Below are positions 596-10,683 of a DNA stretch of 64,000 nt, piece after piece. The notes beneath the pieces are model-generated. The model was not told the DNA's origin. It was given only the letters and a program-made list of their open reading frames with translations, and did not search any database. The position numbers were made by a program, and so were the translations under genes. Each line of letters opens with the position of its first letter. Position 1 is the stretch's first letter. The stretch is from Roseicyclus sediminis (GTDB lineage: Bacteria > Pseudomonadota > Alphaproteobacteria > Rhodobacterales > Rhodobacteraceae), in the NCBI RefSeq assembly GCF_025515305.1, contig NZ_JAOPHT010000005.1, forward strand, positions 124,001 to 188,000, in the 5' to 3' direction.

Positions 596-2539
596 GTGCC
601 CAAGGATACCCAGACCTCGCCCGCCCTGCTTGCCGACGCTCATATCGACGCCGCAGATTACAGCCGCATGTACGCAGACTCGGTCCGCGACCCGGAGGCC
701 TTCTGGGCCGAGCACGGGAAGCGTCTCGACTGGATCAAGCCGTACACCAAGGTGAAGGACACGTCCTTTGCCCATGACGACGTGCATATCCGCTGGTTCG
801 AGGACGGCACGCTGAATGTCGCGACCAACTGCATCGACCGCCATCTTGAGAAGCGCGCCGACCAGACCGCGATCATCTTCGAGGCGGACGATCCGAAAGA
901 GCCGTCCCAGCACATCAGCTATCGTCAGCTCCACAACGAGGTCGGCCGCTTCGCCAACGTCCTGAAGGAACTGGGCGTCGAGCGCGGCGACGGCGTCGTG
1001 CTCTACCTGCCGATGATCCCCGAGGCGGCCTATGCGATGCTGGCCTGCGCGCGGATCGGCGCCATCCATTCCGTCGTCTTCGCCGGCTTCTCGCCCGACG
1101 CGCTCGCCAACCGGGTGAACGACAGCGAGGCCAAGGTGGTCGTCACCTCCGACGGCGCGCCGCGCGGCGGACGGGTCACCGAACTGAAGGACAACGTCAA
1201 CAAGGCGCTCCTGCATTGCGACGACCACGTGAAGTGCCTCGTCGTGAAGCGCACCGGCCAGCAGGTCGCATGGGTGGCCAACCGGGACGTCTGGTACGAC
1301 GACATCGCCTCGACCGTCGGCACCGAATGCCCGGCCGAGGAAATGGGCGCGGAGGATCCGCTGTTCATCCTCTACACCTCGGGCTCGACCGGCAAGCCGA
1401 AGGGCGTGGTTCACACGTCGGGCGGCTATCTCGCCTATGCGGCGATGACCCACCAGTACACGTTCGACTACAAGGACGGGGACGTCTTCTGGTGCACGGC
1501 GGACGTCGGCTGGGTCACCGGGCATTCCTATATCGTCTACGGCCCGCTGGCGAACGGCGGAACGACCCTGATGTTCGAGGGCGTGCCCACCTACCCCGAC
1601 GCTGGCCGGTTCTGGGCGGTGTGCGAGAAGCACTCCGTCAACCAGTTCTACACCGCGCCGACGGCGATCCGCCTTCTCATGGGCCAGCCCGACGAGTTCG
1701 TGACGAAATACGATCTCTCCAGCCTCAAGCTGCTCGGCTCGGTCGGCGAGCCGATCAACCCCGAAGCCTGGAACTGGTACAACGAGGTCGTCGGCAAGGG
1801 GAAATGCCCCATCGTCGACACATGGTGGCAGACCGAGACGGGCGGCCACCTCATCACGCCGCTGCCGGGCGCGACGCCGACCAAACCGGGCTCGGCCACG
1901 GTGCCGTTCTTCGGTGTGCAACCCGTGCTGCTCGATGCCCAGACCGGCGCCGAGATCCACGAGACCGCTGCCGAGGGCGTCCTGTGCATCAAGGACAGCT
2001 GGCCCGGCCAGATGCGCACGCTCTGGGGCGATCCCGAACGCTTCGTCAGCGCCTACTTCTCCGACTACAAGGGCTACTACTTTACCGGCGACGGCTGCCG
2101 CCGGGACGAGGATGGCTATTACTGGATCACCGGTCGGGTCGATGACGTCATCAACGTCTCGGGCCACCGGATGGGCACTGCCGAAGTCGAAAGCGCGCTG
2201 GTGGCCCACGATGCCGTGGCCGAGGCCGCCGTGGTCGGCTTCCCGCACGAGCTGAAGGGCCAGGGCATCTACTGCTACGTCACGCTCATGGCCGACGAGG
2301 AGCCCACGGAAGAGCTGAAGAAAGAGCTTCAGACCTGGGTCCGCAAGGAGATCGGGCCGATCGCGAAGCCCGACGTCATCCAGTTCGCCCCCGGCCTGCC
2401 CAAGACGCGCTCCGGCAAGATCATGCGCCGCATCCTGCGCAAGATCGCCGAGAACGACTTCGGCGCGCTCGGGGACACGTCCACGCTGGCGGACCCGTCT
2501 GTCGTGGACGACCTCATCGCCAACCGCGCGAACACGTGA
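596..2539 (+). CDS. acs: Acetyl-CoA synthetase (AMP-forming)
   Basis: Cytoplasmic ligase that converts acetate, ATP and CoA to acetyl-CoA, AMP and PPi. The 647-aa product is full length for the family. The adenylate-forming P-loop motif [11 protein letters not shown] lies near residue 259. The C-terminal [11 protein letters not shown] motif carries Lys608, equivalent to the lysine whose acetylation switches off Acs in other bacteria. The start is GTG at 596, preceded by GGAGGGG at about 582-588; an upstream ATG in another frame is not used. adk follows 10 bp downstream and a symporter pair comes after it, so the operon imports acetate (or a related short acid), activates it, and recycles the AMP formed. 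Confidence 0.97.
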
Positions 2540-2549
2540 GGGCGGAGCG

Positions 2550-3239
2550 ATGAAGGACACAGCGACCGAGACCCGCCCCGTGAACCTGATCCTGCTGGGC
2601 CCGCCCGGCGCGGGCAAGGGCACGCAGGCGCGGATGCTGATGGAGCAGTTCGGCCTCGTGCAGCTGTCGACCGGCGACCTCCTGCGGGGGGCCGTCGCGG
2701 CGGAGACCGAGGCTGGTCTGGCGGCAAAGGCCGTGATGGAGACGGGCGCCCTCGTCTCCGACGAGATCGTGCTGGCCGTCCTGAAGGAACGGCTCGACCA
2801 GCCGGATGTGGCCGCTGGGACGATCCTCGACGGTTTCCCGCGCACCGCCGCGCAGGCCGAAGCACTCGACGCCCTGCTGGCCGAACGCGGACAGCGGATC
2901 GACGCCGTCATCAGCCTCGAGGTGGACGACGCGGCGATGGTGGAGCGCGTCTCGGGCCGCTACACCTGCGCCGCCTGCGGCGAGGGCTACCACGACAGCT
3001 TCAAGATGCCGGCCGTGGCCGGCGTCTGCGACAAGTGCGGCGGGACGGAGATGAAGCGCCGTGCCGACGACAACGCCGAGACGGTGCGCACGCGGCTTCA
3101 GGCCTACCATGCCGAGACCGCGCCGCTCATCGACTACTACGCCGCCCGCGGCACCCTCACCGGCATTCCCGCGATGGGAGAGATCGGCGAGATCGCGGAA
3201 CGGATGTGCGCGATCGTGACAGGCGTCACGACCGCATGA
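2550..3239 (+). CDS. adk: Adenylate kinase with zinc-binding LID
   Basis: Interconverts AMP plus ATP with two ADP. The 229-aa protein has the P-loop GPPGAGKGTQA near residues 12-22, the DGFPRT motif, and a long LID containing a Cys-x2-Cys / Cys-x2-Cys set (in YTCAACGEGY and CDKCGG), which is the metal-binding LID type known from Paracoccus and Gram-positive enzymes. It sits directly after acs, whose product AMP it would recycle. Housekeeping adk in this group usually lies among ribosomal protein genes, so this may be a second, acetate-dedicated copy; that is an inference because the rest of the genome is not visible. Confidence 0.95.
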   Translation: MKDTATETRPVNLILLGPPGAGKGTQARMLMEQFGLVQLSTGDLLRGAVAAETEAGLAAKAVMETGALVSDEIVLAVLKERLDQPDVAAGTILDGFPRTAAQAEALDALLAERGQRIDAVISLEVDDAAMVERVSGRYTCAACGEGYHDSFKMPAVAGVCDKCGGTEMKRRADDNAETVRTRLQAYHAETAPLIDYYAARGTLTGIPAMGEIGEIAERMCAIVTGVTTA

Positions 3240-3329: not shown

Positions 3330-3587
3330 ATGGCTGAAAAATCTGATAACAATGCCTATTGGGCCGCGAATATCCGCCTGGTCACCATCTCGCTGGTGAT
3401 CTGGGCATTCGCGTCCTACGGCTTCGGGATCCTGCTTCGGCCGCTGATCAGCGGTATCGCGGTGGGTGGCACGGATCTGGGCTTCTGGTTTGCCCAGCAG
3501 GGATCGATCCTCGTCTTCCTTGTCCTGATCTTCTTCTATGCCTGGCGCATGAACAAGATCGACAAGGAACATGGCGTGGACGAGTAA
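3330..3587 (+). CDS. DUF4212 small subunit of sodium/solute symporter
   Basis: The 85-aa protein has two predicted membrane helices: about residues 15-38 (containing VTISLVIWAFASYGFGILL) and about 50-72 (containing SILVFLVLIFFYAWRM). Its C-terminus, KIDKEHGVDE, is typical of DUF4212 proteins. These are encoded immediately before SSS-family symporters of the VC_2705 type, as here (15 bp gap), and are thought to be a partner subunit. A GGGAGAG ribosome site precedes the ATG. Confidence 0.9.
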   Translation: MAEKSDNNAYWAANIRLVTISLVIWAFASYGFGILLRPLISGIAVGGTDLGFWFAQQGSILVFLVLIFFYAWRMNKIDKEHGVDE

Positions 3588-3602: not shown

Positions 3603-5393
3603 ATGGATCAGACAACACTCAACATCATCGTCGTGGGGCTGTCGTTCGCGCTCTACTTCGGTATCGCGATCTGGGCCCGCGCGGGCTCCACGTCGGAATT
3701 CTACGCCGCCGGCCGGGGTGTGAACCCCGTCGTCAACGGGATGGCCACCGCCGCTGACTGGATGTCGGCGGCTTCGTTCATCTCGATGGCCGGCCTCATC
3801 GCCTTCTCGGGCTACACCAACTCGCTGTTCCTGATGGGCTGGACCGGCGGCTACGTGCTCATGGCCATGCTTCTCGCGCCCTACCTGCGGAAGTTCGGCA
3901 AGTACACGGTGCCGGAGTTCATCGGCGACCGCTACTACTCGAACACCGCACGCGTCGTGGCGGTCGTTTCGCTCATCGTCATCTCGGTCACCTACGTTAT
4001 CGGCCAGATGACTGGGGCGGGCGTTGCCTTCTCGCGCTTCCTCGAGGTGGAATCGACCACCGGCCTGTTCATCGCCTCGGCGGTGGTTTTCGTCTACGCG
4101 GTTCTCGGCGGCATGAAGGGCATCACCTACACGCAGGTGGCCCAGTATGTCGTTCTGATCATCGCCTACACGATCCCGGCCGTCTTCATCTCGCTGCAGC
4201 TGACCGGCAACCCGATCCCGGGTCTCGGCCTGTTCTCGACCATGGCCGAAGGCCAGGTCGGCGCGGGGCAGCACCTGCTGGTGACGCTGGACGGCCTGCT
4301 GACGGATCTCGGCTTCAACGAGTACACCGCCGGCACGAACGCCTGGCTCATGGCGCTCTACACCCTGTCGCTGATGATCGGCACCGCGGGCCTTCCGCAC
4401 GTCATCATCCGCTTCTTCACGGTGCCGAAGGTGGCCGACGCTCGTTGGTCCGCAGGCTGGGCGCTGGTGTTCATCGCGCTGCTGTACCTCACCGCTCCCG
4501 CGGTCGGTGCAATGGCTCGCCTGAACATCACCACGCAGTTCTGGCCCGAGGGCATCCAGGGTGAGGCCGTGTCGCTCGAGACGATCGAGAACGACGACGC
4601 CTACGACTGGATGGCGACGTGGCAGGCAACCGGCCTTCTGGGCTGGGAAGACAAGAACGGCGACGGCCGCATCCAGTACTACAACGACGCCAATGCCGAC
4701 ATGCAGGCCCTGGCGGCGGAGCGTGGCTGGGCCGGCAACGAGTTGACCAACTTCAACCGGGACATCCTGGTTCTGGCCAACCCGGAAATCGCCAACCTGC
4801 CGGGCTGGGTCGTCGCACTCATCGCGGCGGGCGGCATCGCGGCGGCACTGTCCACCGCGGCAGGCCTTCTGCTCGCCATCTCCTCGGCGATCAGCCACGA
4901 CCTCATCAAGTCGGTGATCAACCCCAACATCTCGGAGCGGGGCGAACTTCTCGCGGCCCGTATCTCGATGGCGGGCGCGATCGTGCTGGCGACGTACCTG
5001 GGTCTCAACCCGCCGGGCTTCGCGGCGCAGGTTGTGGCACTGGCCTTCGGTCTTGCCGCGGCCACCCTGTTCCCGGTGCTGATGATGGGGATCTTCTCCA
5101 AGCGGATGAACTCCGCCGGTGCGACCTGGGGCATGCTGGCCGGTCTGATCTCGACCTGCCTGTACCTGTTCCTCTACCTCGGCTGGTTCTTCATCCCGGG
5201 TACGAACATGCTGACCGCAGACCAGTACCTGTTCGGCATCCCGCCGACCCACTTCGGCCCGATCGGCGCTGTGTTCAACTTCGCAGTCGCCTACCTCGTG
5301 TCGAACGCAACGGCCGCTCCGCCCAAGGAAATCCAGGACCTCGTCGAGAGCGTCCGGATCCCGCGCGGCGCCGGCGCGGCGATCAACAAGTGA
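3603..5393 (+). CDS. Sodium:solute symporter, VC_2705 subfamily
   Basis: Inner-membrane SSS-family Na+ symporter of 596 aa with about 13 hydrophobic helices; the conserved sodium-site region is near AADWMSAASFISMAG (residues about 50-65). It is paired with DUF4212 and linked to acs, so acetate or another short carboxylate is the likely substrate. It resembles ActP, but E. coli ActP partners with a DUF485 protein, so I do not use that name. A long non-membrane segment (residues about 305-395) interrupts the helices and contains DKNGDGRIQYYND near residue 350, close to an EF-hand calcium loop. The ribosome site is weak (GGGGCAG). A terminator follows. Confidence 0.9.
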   Translation: MDQTTLNIIVVGLSFALYFGIAIWARAGSTSEFYAAGRGVNPVVNGMATAADWMSAASFISMAGLIAFSGYTNSLFLMGWTGGYVLMAMLLAPYLRKFGKYTVPEFIGDRYYSNTARVVAVVSLIVISVTYVIGQMTGAGVAFSRFLEVESTTGLFIASAVVFVYAVLGGMKGITYTQVAQYVVLIIAYTIPAVFISLQLTGNPIPGLGLFSTMAEGQVGAGQHLLVTLDGLLTDLGFNEYTAGTNAWLMALYTLSLMIGTAGLPHVIIRFFTVPKVADARWSAGWALVFIALLYLTAPAVGAMARLNITTQFWPEGIQGEAVSLETIENDDAYDWMATWQATGLLGWEDKNGDGRIQYYNDANADMQALAAERGWAGNELTNFNRDILVLANPEIANLPGWVVALIAAGGIAAALSTAAGLLLAISSAISHDLIKSVINPNISERGELLAARISMAGAIVLATYLGLNPPGFAAQVVALAFGLAAATLFPVLMMGIFSKRMNSAGATWGMLAGLISTCLYLFLYLGWFFIPGTNMLTADQYLFGIPPTHFGPIGAVFNFAVAYLVSNATAAPPKEIQDLVESVRIPRGAGAAINK

Positions 5394-5501: not shown

Positions 5502-7316
5502 ATGAGCCTCGACATCGCAGCCACGCTGGCCGGCACGCATCCCTACGACGCCCTGCCCGATGCAGATCGCGCGGCGCTCGCCGCCCAAGTCGACCTGCAG
5601 GAAATCGACGCCGGGGCGACGCTCTACAGGGTCGGCGATCCGCAGACACACCTGTACCTGATCCTCGAAGGTCGCATCGACATCACCGACGAGGGCGGCG
5701 AGGTCCTGTCCATCCTCGGGCCCCGCAACTCCTTCGGCGAACGCGGGCTGATGAAGGACGGCACCGCCGTCGTGACCGCCACCGCCGCCGAGGACAGCCG
5801 GCTTCTGCGCATTCCCGCCGCGGCGTTCCACGCGCTCCTGCGCGACCATCCCCGCGTGATGCGCTTCTTCGACCGGACGCGGCCGGCCGCAAGGCGCCGC
5901 CAGGACATCACCACCATCGCGCTCGCCGACCTGATGACGCGCGACCCGCTGACCTGCCCTCCCGAGACCCCGCTGATCGAGGCGGCGCGGAAGATGCGCG
6001 AGATCCACGTCTCCTGCATCATCGCCGCCGAGGAAGGTACAGTGAAGGGCATCCTGACCACCGGCGACATCGCCAGCCGCGCGGTCGCCGAAGGCGTGCC
6101 CTTCGACACGCCGGTGGCCAGCGTCATGACGCCCGATCCCATCACCCTGCCCCCCACCGCCCTTGTCGCCGACGTCCTGCACACGATGGTCGAACGCGGC
6201 ATCACACACATGCCCGTGGTCGAGGCCGGCAAGCTCGTGGGCATCCTGACCCAGACCGACCTGACGCGGTTCCAGGCCACGTCCTCGGCCGCGCTGATCC
6301 AGGAGATCGCATCGGCCCCGGACAGCGCGACGCTGGCGAAGATCGTGGGCCGCATCCCCGAGCTTCTGGTGCAGCTCGTCGCCGCCCAGAACCCCCACCA
6401 GGTCGTGACGCGGCTGATCACCGATATCGGGGACGCGACGACGCGGCGCCTTCTTGCGCTCGCCGAGGCGAAGCTCGGGCCGCCACCCGTGCCCTACCTT
6501 TGGCTCGCCTGCGGCAGCCAGGGGCGACAGGAACAGACCGGGGTCTCGGACCAGGACAACTGCCTTATCCTCGACGATGCCGCGACGCCCCCCGACGACG
6601 CCTATTTCGCGGAGCTCGCCAAGTTCGTGTCCGACGGGCTGAACGAGGCGGGTTATTTCTACTGCCCCGGCGACATGATGGCGACGGCGGTCCGCTGGCG
6701 GCAGCCGGTGCGCGTCTGGCGGCAGTACTTCGCGGGCTGGATCGCCACGCCGAACCCCGAGGCACAGATGCTCGCCTCCGTCATGTTCGACCTGCGGCCC
6801 ATCGGCGGGAACTTCGGCCTCTTCGCCGACCTGCAGGAAGAGACGCTGGCGGCCGCCTCGAAGAACTCGATCTTCGTGGCGCACATGATCTCCAACTCGC
6901 TGAAGCATCAGCCGCCGCTGGGGCTTTTCCGAGGCTTCGCCACGGTCCGCTCGGGCGAGCACAAGAACACGATCGACCTCAAGCACAACGGCGTCGTGCC
7001 GGTCGTGGACCTCGGCCGCGTCTACGCGCTGAAGGGACGTCTGACCGAGGTGAACACGCGCGCGCGGCTCCTGGCCGCGATCGAGGCGGGTGCGGTGTCG
7101 ACAACCGGGGGGCGCGACCTGATCGACGCCTATGACATGATCGCGCAGACCCGGCTCGAACATCAGGCGGAACTGATCAAGTCCGGCGAGAAGCCCGACA
7201 ACTTCATGACGCCCGCGGATCTTTCTGATTTCGAGCGCAGCCACCTGCGCGACGCGTTCGTCGTCATCAAGACCATGCAAAACGCCGCCGGCTCCGGCCG
7301 CGGCTACCTGAGTTGA
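5502..7316 (+). CDS. cNMP-binding/CBS/DUF294 nucleotidyltransferase-like protein
   Basis: Predicted cytoplasmic signalling protein of 604 aa. Residues about 15-130 form a cyclic-nucleotide-binding fold (LYLILEGRIDITDEGGEV, GPRNSFGERGLM). Two CBS domains follow (about 140-260, starting LADLMTRDPLTCPPETPLI), then a DUF294 nucleotidyltransferase core with the GlnD-like signature GSQGRQEQTGVSDQD near residue 345, and a DUF294 C-terminal domain. Proteins of this architecture are commonly encoded beside VC_2705-type symporters, so it may modulate acetate uptake in response to nucleotides; target and reaction are unproven. An ACGGGAG site precedes the ATG. Confidence 0.88.
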   Translation: MSLDIAATLAGTHPYDALPDADRAALAAQVDLQEIDAGATLYRVGDPQTHLYLILEGRIDITDEGGEVLSILGPRNSFGERGLMKDGTAVVTATAAEDSRLLRIPAAAFHALLRDHPRVMRFFDRTRPAARRRQDITTIALADLMTRDPLTCPPETPLIEAARKMREIHVSCIIAAEEGTVKGILTTGDIASRAVAEGVPFDTPVASVMTPDPITLPPTALVADVLHTMVERGITHMPVVEAGKLVGILTQTDLTRFQATSSAALIQEIASAPDSATLAKIVGRIPELLVQLVAAQNPHQVVTRLITDIGDATTRRLLALAEAKLGPPPVPYLWLACGSQGRQEQTGVSDQDNCLILDDAATPPDDAYFAELAKFVSDGLNEAGYFYCPGDMMATAVRWRQPVRVWRQYFAGWIATPNPEAQMLASVMFDLRPIGGNFGLFADLQEETLAAASKNSIFVAHMISNSLKHQPPLGLFRGFATVRSGEHKNTIDLKHNGVVPVVDLGRVYALKGRLTEVNTRARLLAAIEAGAVSTTGGRDLIDAYDMIAQTRLEHQAELIKSGEKPDNFMTPADLSDFERSHLRDAFVVIKTMQNAAGSGRGYLS

Positions 7317-7329
7317 GGAAGGAGACGCC

Positions 7330-7863
7330 ATGTTCTGGGCGCTGATCACCGCCGTGGTGGCCGGCTTCGCGGGGGCCGGGATCGGCCTGCTGCTGCGGTC
7401 GCTGTCGCGCAAGCGGCTGCCCCAGGGCATCATCCCGATCTGCGCGGGCCTCGCCATGCTCGCCGCCACCGTGGGCACCGAGTACGGCTGGTATCCCAAC
7501 GTGTTGCGGAACATGGCGGCGGATACGGTCGTCGTTTCCACCCGCGAGCAGCAGACATGGTATCAGCCCTGGACCTATGTCCGGCCCTGGGTGCGCGGCT
7601 TCATCGCCTATTCGCCGTCCGAGACGGTCGAGACCGCGCCCGGTTCCGGGATCCAGGTCGTGCAGATCCGCCGCCAGGAACGCTGGCAGCCGCAATTCGT
7701 CCTGCCTGTCCTCGTGGATTGTGACGGCGCACGCCGGGCCGAGATCACGCCCTCGACCACCTTCACCGAAACCGGGGCACCCGTGGATGCCGGCTGGCTG
7801 AGCCCCGGCCGCGATGACCCGATCCTGAATTCCGTCTGCAGCGGGGGGGCTGCAGGCGGCTGA
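7330..7863 (+). CDS. Conserved hypothetical membrane protein
   Basis: The 177-aa protein has two membrane helices near the N-terminus (about 3-22 and 34-52) and then a soluble part rich in Trp and Tyr (TWYQPWTYVRPWVRGF). I recognise no enzymatic motif. AAGGAG precedes the ATG by 6 bases. It lies between the DUF294 protein (13 bp gap) and the exonuclease fusion and is probably co-transcribed with both. The C-terminus ends in a Gly/Ala/Ser tail. Confidence 0.75.
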   Translation: MFWALITAVVAGFAGAGIGLLLRSLSRKRLPQGIIPICAGLAMLAATVGTEYGWYPNVLRNMAADTVVVSTREQQTWYQPWTYVRPWVRGFIAYSPSETVETAPGSGIQVVQIRRQERWQPQFVLPVLVDCDGARRAEITPSTTFTETGAPVDAGWLSPGRDDPILNSVCSGGAAGG

Positions 7864-7939: not shown

Positions 7940-9943
7940 ATGTTCACCACGCTATCCCTGCGTCTGCGCATATTCCTGTTCTTCGCCTTTCTCGCGGCCG
8001 CGACATCGGCCCTTGCCGTCGCGGGCCTCGTGCTGGGCTATGTCCGCCTGGGCGAGGACCATGCCCTTTCGGCCTTCGTCATCTCGGGCGTCATCGCGGT
8101 GCTGGCGATCTTCGCCCTGACGACCTGGATCTGGGTTCTCTTCGATGAGAATGTCGCCAAACCGGTCGAGCGACTGGCCGCCGAGATGCGCGCGCGGGCC
8201 CATGCCGATGTCGACGACGTGATCGACCACGCCCCCGCGAAGTACCTGGGCGATCTGGGCACCGCTGCCGCGGCCGTGACCACGAACCTCACCGAGACGC
8301 GCAACGCCATGGCGCTGGCCGTGGGCCGCGAGACCGCGCGCCTGACGACCGAGAAGACGCGGCTCGAGGCGCTTCTGGCCGAGGTTCCCGACGGTGTCCT
8401 CTTCTGTACGCCGGGTCATTCCATCGCGCTCTACAACGCCAATGCCCGCGGCATCCTTGGCGCCTCCGAGGCGCTGGGACTGAACCGGCCGCTGCGCGGG
8501 CTGCTGCGCATGGGCCCGGTGGAACAGGCCTATGAGCGCCTAGTCGGCAAGGACGGCGACGAGGGAACCGACATCCTCGTGACGACGCGCGAGGGGGCGC
8601 GGCTTCTGGAGGCCAGGATGCGGCTTCTCCGGCTCGAAGGGCAGGAGACGGAGCGGCCGGGCTATGTCCTGACGCTGCGCGACGTGACGGAGGACATGGC
8701 CACCCACATGGAGCGGACGCACCTGCTGGAGACGTTGCTGAAGGGCGTGCAGGACGCCCTTCCCGGCATTCAGGGCGACGCCGCCGCGAGCCTCGCCACG
8801 CTCGCCGAGGCCACCGAGACGCGAAAAGGCGCCACAGACACCGGCTGGTGGCCGATGGAGCATATCGCCGCCGAGGACCTAGGCGCGGCGCTGACCGCGC
8901 GCCTCTCCCGCAAGGGCGTAGCGCTGGCATCGGACCTCGGGGCGACGGCGCTCCGCTGCGACGGTTTCGCGGTCACGCGGCTGATGGAGCGGCTGGCGCT
9001 TGACTGGTCGGGCGACGGCGCGCGCGAGTTCGCGTTGACGATCGCCTCCGAAGGCGACCGGGAGGCCATCGTCAGCCTCGAGGCGTCGGGCGACATCCCG
9101 ACGGCCGAGGCGGTCGCGGGCTGGCTCGCCACACCGCTATCGCCGGGGATGAGCGGCTTCACCGGGGCAAATGTTGCGCTGGCCCACGGCACGGCCATCC
9201 TGCGCGAACCGGCGGGACCGGGGCGGAGCGCGCTGCGCTTTGCGCTGCCGCTGGCCGAGGCGCGGCCCGCGCGGCCCAAGCGCGCGGTCCTCTACGACTT
9301 CGACCTCCTCAACGCCGAGATCCCCGAGGACCTCGCCGCCGCCGCGCTGCGCGAGCTGAACTTCGTCATCTTCGACACCGAGACCACCGGCCTGAACCCG
9401 CAGGTGGACGAGATATGCCAGATCGCCGCCGTCCGCGTGGTGAACGGCAAGCTCGTGGGCGCGGAACGGTTCGACATGCTGGTGAACCCCGGGCGCGGCA
9501 TCCCCGCGGCTTCGACCGCCGTCCACCACATCACCGACGCGATGGTGGCAGACGCACCCGGCGTGGCCGAGGCGATCCGGCGGTTTCACACCTTCGCCGA
9601 CGGTGCGGTGCTGGTCGCCCACAATGCACCCTTCGACATGTCGTTCCTCCGGCGCCGCGAGCGTGAGATCGGGCGGCGCTTCGACCAGCCGATCCTCGAC
9701 ACGGTCCTGTGCTCGGCGATCCTTTTCGGGCAATCGGCGGAGCACACGCTCGACGCGCTGTGCACGAGGCTCGGCGTCGCCATCCCCGAAGCCGACCGGC
9801 ACACAGCCATTGGCGATGCGATCGGCACCGGCGAGGCCTTCCGCAAGATGATCCCGATGCTGGAAGCGGCAGACCTGCCCAATCTCGGGGCACTCATCCA
9901 GGCCTTCGACCGCCATTCGCGGCTGATCGAACACCTGAATTGA
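7940..9943 (+). CDS. Membrane sensor-kinase-like protein fused to DnaQ-type 3'-5' exonuclease
   Basis: The 667-aa protein has two N-terminal helices (about residues 9-36 and 46-68) followed by a HAMP-like stretch (FDENVAKPVERLAAEM), a PAS-like region (EVPDGVLFCTPGHSIALYN) and a degenerate kinase-like ATPase region without a clear phospho-acceptor His box. The C-terminal 190 residues are a DEDDh exonuclease as in the DNA polymerase III epsilon subunit: VIFDTETTG (first Asp and Glu), AHNAPFDMSFL (Asp), and HTAIGDAIGTG (His, Asp). All catalytic residues are present. It is not the replicative epsilon subunit. Its place after the symporter/DUF294 genes suggests a sensory role; the substrate is unknown. 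Confidence 0.85.
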   Translation: MFTTLSLRLRIFLFFAFLAAATSALAVAGLVLGYVRLGEDHALSAFVISGVIAVLAIFALTTWIWVLFDENVAKPVERLAAEMRARAHADVDDVIDHAPAKYLGDLGTAAAAVTTNLTETRNAMALAVGRETARLTTEKTRLEALLAEVPDGVLFCTPGHSIALYNANARGILGASEALGLNRPLRGLLRMGPVEQAYERLVGKDGDEGTDILVTTREGARLLEARMRLLRLEGQETERPGYVLTLRDVTEDMATHMERTHLLETLLKGVQDALPGIQGDAAASLATLAEATETRKGATDTGWWPMEHIAAEDLGAALTARLSRKGVALASDLGATALRCDGFAVTRLMERLALDWSGDGAREFALTIASEGDREAIVSLEASGDIPTAEAVAGWLATPLSPGMSGFTGANVALAHGTAILREPAGPGRSALRFALPLAEARPARPKRAVLYDFDLLNAEIPEDLAAAALRELNFVIFDTETTGLNPQVDEICQIAAVRVVNGKLVGAERFDMLVNPGRGIPAASTAVHHITDAMVADAPGVAEAIRRFHTFADGAVLVAHNAPFDMSFLRRREREIGRRFDQPILDTVLCSAILFGQSAEHTLDALCTRLGVAIPEADRHTAIGDAIGTGEAFRKMIPMLEAADLPNLGALIQAFDRHSRLIEHLN

Positions 9944-9993: not shown

Positions 9994-10683
9994 ATGGCGC
10001 GCACGCCGCTCTACAAGGCCGCCGAGGCCGAGATGATCCGCCGGATCGAGGCCGGAACATGGGAGGTCGGCCGCCGCCTGCCCAACGAATTCGTGCTGGC
10101 CGAGGAATTCGGCGTCAGCCAGGGCACGATGCGGCGCGCGCTCATGACGCTGGAGGGCATGGGGCTTCTCAGCCGCAAGCCCGGACGCGGCACCATCGTG
10201 GCCGAGACGGTCGAGACCCCCGAGGCCCCGACCGCTGCGCGGACCGCCGCTCAGCTCCGCGATGCCGACGGCCAGCCGGTCGCCTTCGAGGTCCACCGCG
10301 CGAAATCCGCCACGCGCGGTGCCGACGAGGCGGAACTCGCGCTTTTCGGCAAGCCGCGCCTCGCCGCCGTGGAGCGGCTGCTGAAGCGGAACGGCGAGCG
10401 CGCGGCGCTGGAGGAAACCCTGATTCCGGAGACGCTGATCCCGGCACTCGACGAGGACGCGCCCGTCGATCTGGAGGCCTTCCTGATCGCCCATGGCCTC
10501 GACCCGGCCGGGACGGAGGCCTCGGTCTCCGCCGGGATCACCACGATGGCGGATTCGGTGGCGCTGTCGTGCGACCGGCATACGCCCCTGCTGGTGATCC
10601 GCCGCGTCGCGCGCGATGGCAAGGGGCGGGCCATCGCGCTGCAGGTCATGCGGGTCGCCGCCGAAGACGTGACCTGGGGCTAG
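9994..10683 (+). CDS. GntR-family transcriptional regulator (UTRA type)
   Basis: The 229-aa protein has an N-terminal winged helix: IRRIEAGTWEVGRRLPNE, then EEFGVSQGTMRRALMTLEG and GLLSRKPGRGTIV at residues about 14-68. The rest resembles a UTRA ligand-binding domain of HutC-like regulators. I chose the ATG at 9994 because AAGGGACAG precedes it and the conserved LYKAAEAEMI starts just after; the open frame upstream overlaps the exonuclease gene. It ends 6 bp from the convergent gabD. Ligand and targets are unknown; it could govern the acetate/exonuclease block or gabD. Confidence 0.85.
   Translation: MARTPLYKAAEAEMIRRIEAGTWEVGRRLPNEFVLAEEFGVSQGTMRRALMTLEGMGLLSRKPGRGTIVAETVETPEAPTAARTAAQLRDADGQPVAFEVHRAKSATRGADEAELALFGKPRLAAVERLLKRNGERAALEETLIPETLIPALDEDAPVDLEAFLIAHGLDPAGTEASVSAGITTMADSVALSCDRHTPLLVIRRVARDGKGRAIALQVMRVAAEDVTWG

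Follow-up and report, generated by a model that had tools for sequence, protein, structure and literature searches.

The open reading frame studied here lies in a window that comprises the whole 64,000-nucleotide stretch of DNA analysed, and it encodes a predicted inner-membrane exonuclease carried on a dead histidine-kinase scaffold. The pseudokinase-exonuclease family to which it belongs is widespread in Pseudomonadota, and its exonuclease is near-obligately associated with a DUF294 nucleotidyltransferase. Together, the associations of the exonuclease, DUF294 proteins, and receivers suggest a previously undescribed means of switching the use of acetate and pyruvate. The preliminary description of this DNA had pictured a membrane-tethered nuclease under a sensory module. 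Our analysis bears this out in part, as a membrane-tethered DEDDh exonuclease with intact residues on a sensor-kinase scaffold, encoded in an operon with acs, adk, a symporter pair, and a DUF294 gene (Table 1). Since full-length homologues with 47 to 84% identity occur in nine other genomes among the 31 searched, the architecture is not a matter of chance. The DUF294-exonuclease operon is already known in Pseudomonas; no account of the pseudokinase-exonuclease architecture or of its receiver link was found in the open-licence literature searched.

Table 1. The operon and the parts of the exonuclease open reading frame, with positions in the window
Feature	Position	Strand	Length or basis
Acetyl-CoA synthetase (acs)	596..2539	+	
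Adenylate kinase	2550..3239	+	
Symporter small subunit (DUF4212)	3330..3587	+	
VC_2705-family sodium/solute symporter	3603..5393	+	TIGR03648 E 4e-239
DUF294 protein: cNMP-binding, two CBS, nucleotidyltransferase, DUF294_C	5502..7316	+	
177-aa operon protein	7330..7863	+	no Pfam/NCBIfam match
Pseudokinase-DEDDh exonuclease open reading frame	7940..9943	+	667 aa
Membrane helix hairpin, residues 7-88 (helices 7-37, 42-88)	7958..8203	+	AF2 secondary structure, hydropathy
Signalling helix after HAMP-like connector, residues 106-147	8255..8380	+	AF2 model
PAS-like domain, residues 148-250	8381..8689	+	PAS_4 E 3e-4 (below cut-off), AF2 fold
DHp-like helix hairpin without phospho-His (K268; Q271 at His+3)	8687..8851	+	
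CA/ATPase-like fold, DxG Asp replaced (A382 in window)	8852..9259	+	hhalign, AF2, residue counts
Conserved YDFDLL motif, linker ahead of exonuclease	9293..9310	+	
DEDDh exonuclease domain, residues 472-645 (D479 E481 D566 H621 D626)	9353..9874	+	
GntR/UTRA regulator, downstream of exonuclease	9994..10683	+	start codon placed by eye

An AlphaFold2 model of the whole protein, built on a 53-sequence alignment (pLDDT 86.6, pTM 0.66), resolves a hairpin (7-88), a signalling helix (106-147), a PAS-like domain (152-248), a DHp hairpin (250-303), a CA-like fold (307-438), and the exonuclease (463-666). The top Foldseek matches of this model are sensor kinases (WalK 9a5d, E 2e-14; 4gcz, E 8e-13; 4i5s, E 2e-11); by type, the leaders are WalK, LOV-HK, and VicK-type kinases, and PolC/epsilon exonucleases are also among the matches listed. 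The two helices and the complete DEDDh exonuclease reported at the outset are thus recovered, the former as the modelled hairpin and the latter with all five residues present. Profile matches are weaker for the HAMP-like and PAS-like regions. The PAS_4 profile stays just under the Pfam cut-off in the window protein (21.4 versus 23.1 bits) and is found at E<=0.01 in 30 of the 53 family members, and the modelled fold is consistent with PAS; a HAMP profile matches in only two of the 53.

The exonuclease domain is recognized by RNase_T (PF00929) over residues 476-630 with an E value of 5e-36 (125.1 bits against a cut-off of 24), and D479, E481, D566, H621, and D626 are invariant in all 53 aligned rows. 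All catalytic residues of a 3'-5' exonuclease are present, and activity is predicted. Among solved structures, PolC and Pol III epsilon are closest to it, with RNase T and other DEDDh RNases also listed.

The degenerate kinase region of the preliminary description is real and can be refined to a pseudokinase. Residues 252-440 align by hhalign with the kinases encoded beside relatives at a probability of 99.0 (E 8e-18), while the controls remain low (REC 0.9, exonuclease 0.2, and reversed kinase 5.9). When a profile of the region (48 sequences) was compared with the PDB, histidine kinases were found by sequence, DivL (4q20) ranking fifth with an E value of 6.5e-7. The pseudokinase of an Azoarcus relative (L097), modelled alone, gave histidine-kinase cores and kinase-like proteins among the 50 matches listed. 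It superposes on DivL 4q20_B with Z 13.7 and an rmsd of 11.7 over 204 residues, and its CA part alone on 1ys3 with Z 16.5 and an rmsd of 2.4 over 134. These controls, and the fold of the Azoarcus relative, rule out a weak-profile artefact.

The signature residues of a working kinase are gone. HATPase_c has a Pfam match in none of the 53 members and HisKA in two. The phosphoacceptor His occurs in none of the 98 scored rows, the window included, and Asp or Glu stands at that position in 78 of 100 rows. The DxG Asp at column 382, a column assigned through the hhalign alignment to neighbour kinases, is absent from all 100 rows, where Trp (89), Ala (9, including the window), Leu (1), or Ser (1) is found instead. 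At the N-box column 355, Asn is kept in three of 100 rows, and the window has Asp. A DHp-CA fold is present by prediction, and the kinase is dead as judged from its sequence; the missing His, DxG Asp, and N-box Asn, with no HATPase_c match, rule out an active sensor kinase. The family shares the DivL-type feature of a histidine-kinase core in which the phospho-His is replaced.

The gene order acs, adk, symporter, DUF294, small gene, exonuclease is shared by 10 of the 15 stretches that were read in other genomes (L021-L029 and L031); an eleventh (L030) starts at adk, and the remaining four differ in order. Conservation of the locus with the DUF294 and symporter genes had been proposed as a check, and it holds: among 141 dereplicated loci, the stretch around the locus has DUF294 in 120, the symporter in 104, and an L097-like kinase in 49, these counts being lower bounds where contigs or stretches end. 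The 141 comprise 80 loci, chosen as nearest the window exonuclease and biased to that extent, 57 from a genome sample (an arbitrary line of E<=1e-40, with up to seven candidates scored per genome), the window, and 13 relatives, minus ten rows. Left out were L031 (judged by length and place to be on the contig of L056), L035 with further generic DnaQ hits, five near-duplicates, and the truncated or split open reading frames L047, L079, L094, L087, and L180. The gene of the 177-aa protein, between DUF294 and the exonuclease, is found mostly in alphaproteobacterial operons. The adenylate kinase gene sits directly 3' of acs, as if handling AMP from acetate activation.

The proposed link to acetate genes stands as far as the operon with acs goes; the closest partner of the exonuclease is DUF294, and not acetate metabolism in general. 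Among 398 evenly sampled Pseudomonadota genomes, the exonuclease is found at E<=1e-40 in 59 and DUF294_C above the Pfam cut-off in 154. DUF294_C is present in 58 of the 59 exonuclease-positive genomes (55 of 56 rechecked, plus the window's genome and two others from its genus) versus 96 of the 339 exonuclease-negative ones (Fisher 2e-26, uncorrected for relatedness). In the sole exception (G113), the exonuclease groups with DnaQ epsilon in the tree. The window's genome has a single DUF294_C match, which is the gene of this operon, separated from the exonuclease gene by one small gene. Furthermore, five open reading frames (L034, L206, L208, L210, and L211) fuse a DEDDh exonuclease to CBS/DUF294, and the one scanned by Pfam (L208) has RNase_T, two CBS, DUF294, and DUF294_C. 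The nucleotidyltransferase motif is kept in 118 of 120 DUF294 proteins.

Upstream sequence was available for 140 loci, 100 with the pseudokinase and 40 without. Of the 100 pseudokinase forms, 77 have a gene for a stand-alone receiver as their direct upstream neighbour, versus none of the 40 others; for the short forms (hairpin, PAS, and exonuclease) the count is 0 of 29. With kinship ignored, the Fisher values are 6e-15 against the short forms and 5e-19 against all 40. Because a receiver gene stands directly upstream in so many pseudokinase rows, the scaffold resembles a platform for docking and signalling. The phospho-Asp is conserved in 76 of these 77 receivers and the Lys in all 77, and their genes end a median of 30 nt ahead of the first membrane helix of the exonuclease. 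The receivers of L086 (6118-6534) and L108 (4958-5356) look degenerate (acidic pocket, or Glu in place of the phospho-Asp). An L097-like kinase gene is in the stretch of 44 of the 77 receiver-bearing loci; in the other 33, no kinase gene was seen there. Of the 23 pseudokinase forms that have none immediately upstream, one (L075) has receivers at other places in its locus.

Arg occupies the His+3 position (residue 271) in 74 of 77 receiver-bearing versus 7 of 23 receiver-less rows. An Arg at His+3 belongs to the normal HisKA motif, and therefore its retention may be ancestral. Correction for phylogeny left three independent pairs on the starred branches for pseudokinase versus receiver (2.6 the same way, 0 opposite, p 0.25), as did a first run on 80 rows. 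The corrected comparisons of the receiver with Arg-271, acidic-268, and Trp-382 gave no significant result. The receiver associations are thus strongly clustered on the tree with few independent changes, which counts against receiver docking, and the corrected tests are too small for significance.

The window itself belongs to a clade in which this partnership is absent. No receiver gene adjoins its exonuclease, and Q271 replaces the putative docking Arg; the receiver, Arg-271, and Trp-382 are missing in nine of nine window-clade rows. Without an adjoining receiver and without the putative docking residues, the window protein gives no ground for a claim of receiver control. The DHp spacer could be measured by motif in 12 of the 77 rows with a receiver and in 11 of the 23 without one. 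It is 54 to 58 residues in eight window-clade rows versus 73 to 81 in the 12 receiver-bearing ones, so that the DHp hairpin of the window is about 22 aa shorter than in the measurable receiver-bearing relatives. Three other measured rows, likewise without a receiver but from outside the clade, have a full-length spacer (73 to 81).

The window's own genome contains 32 receiver matches, and the REC HMM was scored on 12 loci, the best being G000:C1:30039. This best match lies in a locus outside the window (L251, G000:C1:27500-33500), where another copy of acs, with 66% identity to that of the window in the part that matched, is divergent from a stand-alone receiver and a 930-aa kinase with an intact HELRTP motif. 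As a lead only, this receiver/kinase pair could be a trans-partner of the window exonuclease. The 930-aa neighbour kinases scanned by Pfam (those of L097 and L251) have HisKA and HATPase_c only, and a label of SLC5-type sensor kinases, given by eye, was dropped.

Our preferred reading, to which we give a little under an even chance, is that an exonuclease working against the DUF294 enzyme is gated by a dead, DivL-like kinase. Some target, which may be a protein, an RNA, or a small molecule, would receive a nucleotide from the DUF294 enzyme, whose CBS and cNMP domains would control the reaction. The exonuclease would be the remover that reverses this addition, and the pair may tune organic-acid uptake or use. 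In receiver-bearing relatives, a phosphorylated stand-alone receiver would dock on the dead-kinase DHp, as DivK~P does on DivL, and so switch the exonuclease. In the window clade, this input appears lost, which would leave a membrane/PAS input or a constitutive enzyme. The full circuit, running from a membrane kinase through the receiver and the pseudokinase to an attached exonuclease that erases the DUF294 mark and controls organic-acid uptake, is a tentative proposal that we consider somewhat unlikely.

For the window clade, a serious contender, on which we are doubtful on balance, is that what is left of the pseudokinase is decaying and that the exonuclease acts constitutively. The shortened DHp of the eight measured rows and the loss of receiver, Arg-271, and Trp-382 throughout the clade favor it. 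So do the short forms without the pseudokinase region (29 of 140 usable loci); on this reading, relatives without the whole region show it to be dispensable. Among pairs with 80 to 88% exonuclease identity, DHp identity is 0.46 in the window clade (21 pairs) versus 0.58 in receiver-bearing members (56 pairs), with PAS identity at 0.72 versus 0.68. However, the CA-like fold is still confidently predicted, and the reading frame is open in nine window-clade rows. Moreover, the DHp difference is small in the 70 to 80% bin (0.46 versus 0.49), and CA identity differs little in the 80 to 88% bin (0.57 versus 0.60), the pairs not being independent. Three further readings concern what the exonuclease acts upon. 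It might trim or degrade RNAs at the membrane, either uptake/TCA mRNAs or tails added by DUF294, with the scaffold gating access. RNase T and other DEDDh RNases do appear among the fold matches, a profile of Rv2179c-like exoribonuclease matches five of the 53 members, and mRNA decay has been a speculation of Henriquez et al. for PP_0353, in the part of their article cited here (PMC9927547). We nevertheless consider RNA turnover unlikely, as the Pfam matches include no RNA-binding domain and the near-obligate pairing with a nucleotidyltransferase would go unexplained unless that enzyme tails RNA.

Less likely still, in our estimate, is a version close to the preliminary description, which had the nuclease turning over a nucleotide signal: DUF294 would make a small nucleotide signal and the exonuclease destroy it. 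DEDDh oligoribonucleases cleave dinucleotides, the DUF294 protein carries cNMP-binding and CBS domains, and writer and remover are sometimes fused. Against this, an excerpt of PMC3710099 lists DUF294_C among GlnD/GlnE-type domains, which places it with protein modifiers and not with known signal synthases. An ordinary DNA proofreading or repair exonuclease is hardly credible. It would agree with PolC and Pol III epsilon as the best solved relatives, but the window protein reaches 100.3 bits against the 222.7-bit cut-off of the dnaQ equivalog TIGR01406, which rules out an identity as DNA Pol III epsilon. A separate epsilon-like gene, named from homology hits and the tree, is present in the same genome, and the membrane anchor and the operon context argue against such a role as well.

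If the preferred reading of a gated exonuclease opposing DUF294 is true, it would provide a functional handle on DUF294 proteins, which occur in so large a share of the sampled Pseudomonadota genomes, by naming their counter-enzyme. The DivL principle, by which a dead kinase serves a receiver as its receptor, would then also cover the control of an enzyme on the same polypeptide. In the full circuit, the output of a two-component system would be a nuclease, and a regulatory nucleotidylation cycle would have an exonuclease as its eraser. Besides, the unexplained pyruvate phenotype of PP_0353 would gain a testable epistasis prediction.

In Pseudomonas putida, PP_0353 and PP_0354 pair a DEDDh-type exonuclease gene with a CBS/DUF294 gene, as in the window locus. 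According to the portion of PMC9927547 used here, this operon is under MxtR/ErdR and linked to actP and organic-acid growth; deleting the exonuclease gene pp_0353 slows or delays growth on pyruvate, deletion of pp_0354, which encodes the DUF294 partner, has no such effect, and growth on pyruvate is also impaired when ActP-I is lost. These genetics fit what an unopposed inhibitory writer would be expected to give, single mutants not being proof of epistasis. Ten Pseudomonas loci in 9 of 21 genomes were chosen, two through a DUF294 hit and eight through an exonuclease hit, with PP_0353 not among them; in all ten, the DUF294 gene is directly upstream of the exonuclease gene. Unlike the window protein, these ten exonucleases have no apparent membrane hairpin, PAS, or pseudokinase. 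Nine of them form a long separate branch in the tree, and Pseudomonas exonucleases score below DnaQ epsilon against the family HMM. As they are scaffold-less, long-branched, and low-scoring, the pp_0353 phenotype transfers by context only. One genome (G425, Pseudomonas sp. MMS21 TM103) encodes a membrane pseudokinase-exonuclease and two separate DUF294/exonuclease pairs (L100, L238, and L239).

Caulobacter DivL resembles the pseudokinase family, by sequence and by fold, in its histidine-kinase core with a replaced phospho-His; it is not known to carry an exonuclease. In the part of PMC4211667 cited here, DivK~P docks on the DivL pseudokinase, R553A disrupts DivK binding, and DivL acts on CckA. 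We place R553 at Tyr550+3 and equate it with the His+3 Arg of the receiver-bearing relatives. Whereas DivL and DivK are known to bind, the receivers of these relatives are candidate partners by gene adjacency, and the window gene has no adjoining receiver. With PolC-type exonucleases and Pol III epsilon, the window protein has the exonuclease fold and all five catalytic residues in common; in contrast to them, it is joined to no polymerase and fails the epsilon equivalog cut-off. GlnD and GlnE, which combine a Pol-beta-type transferase with an opposing removal activity, are the model for a writer and its eraser. For removal, GlnD uses an HD domain and GlnE a second transferase domain, whereas the candidate remover of the window locus is a DEDDh exonuclease.
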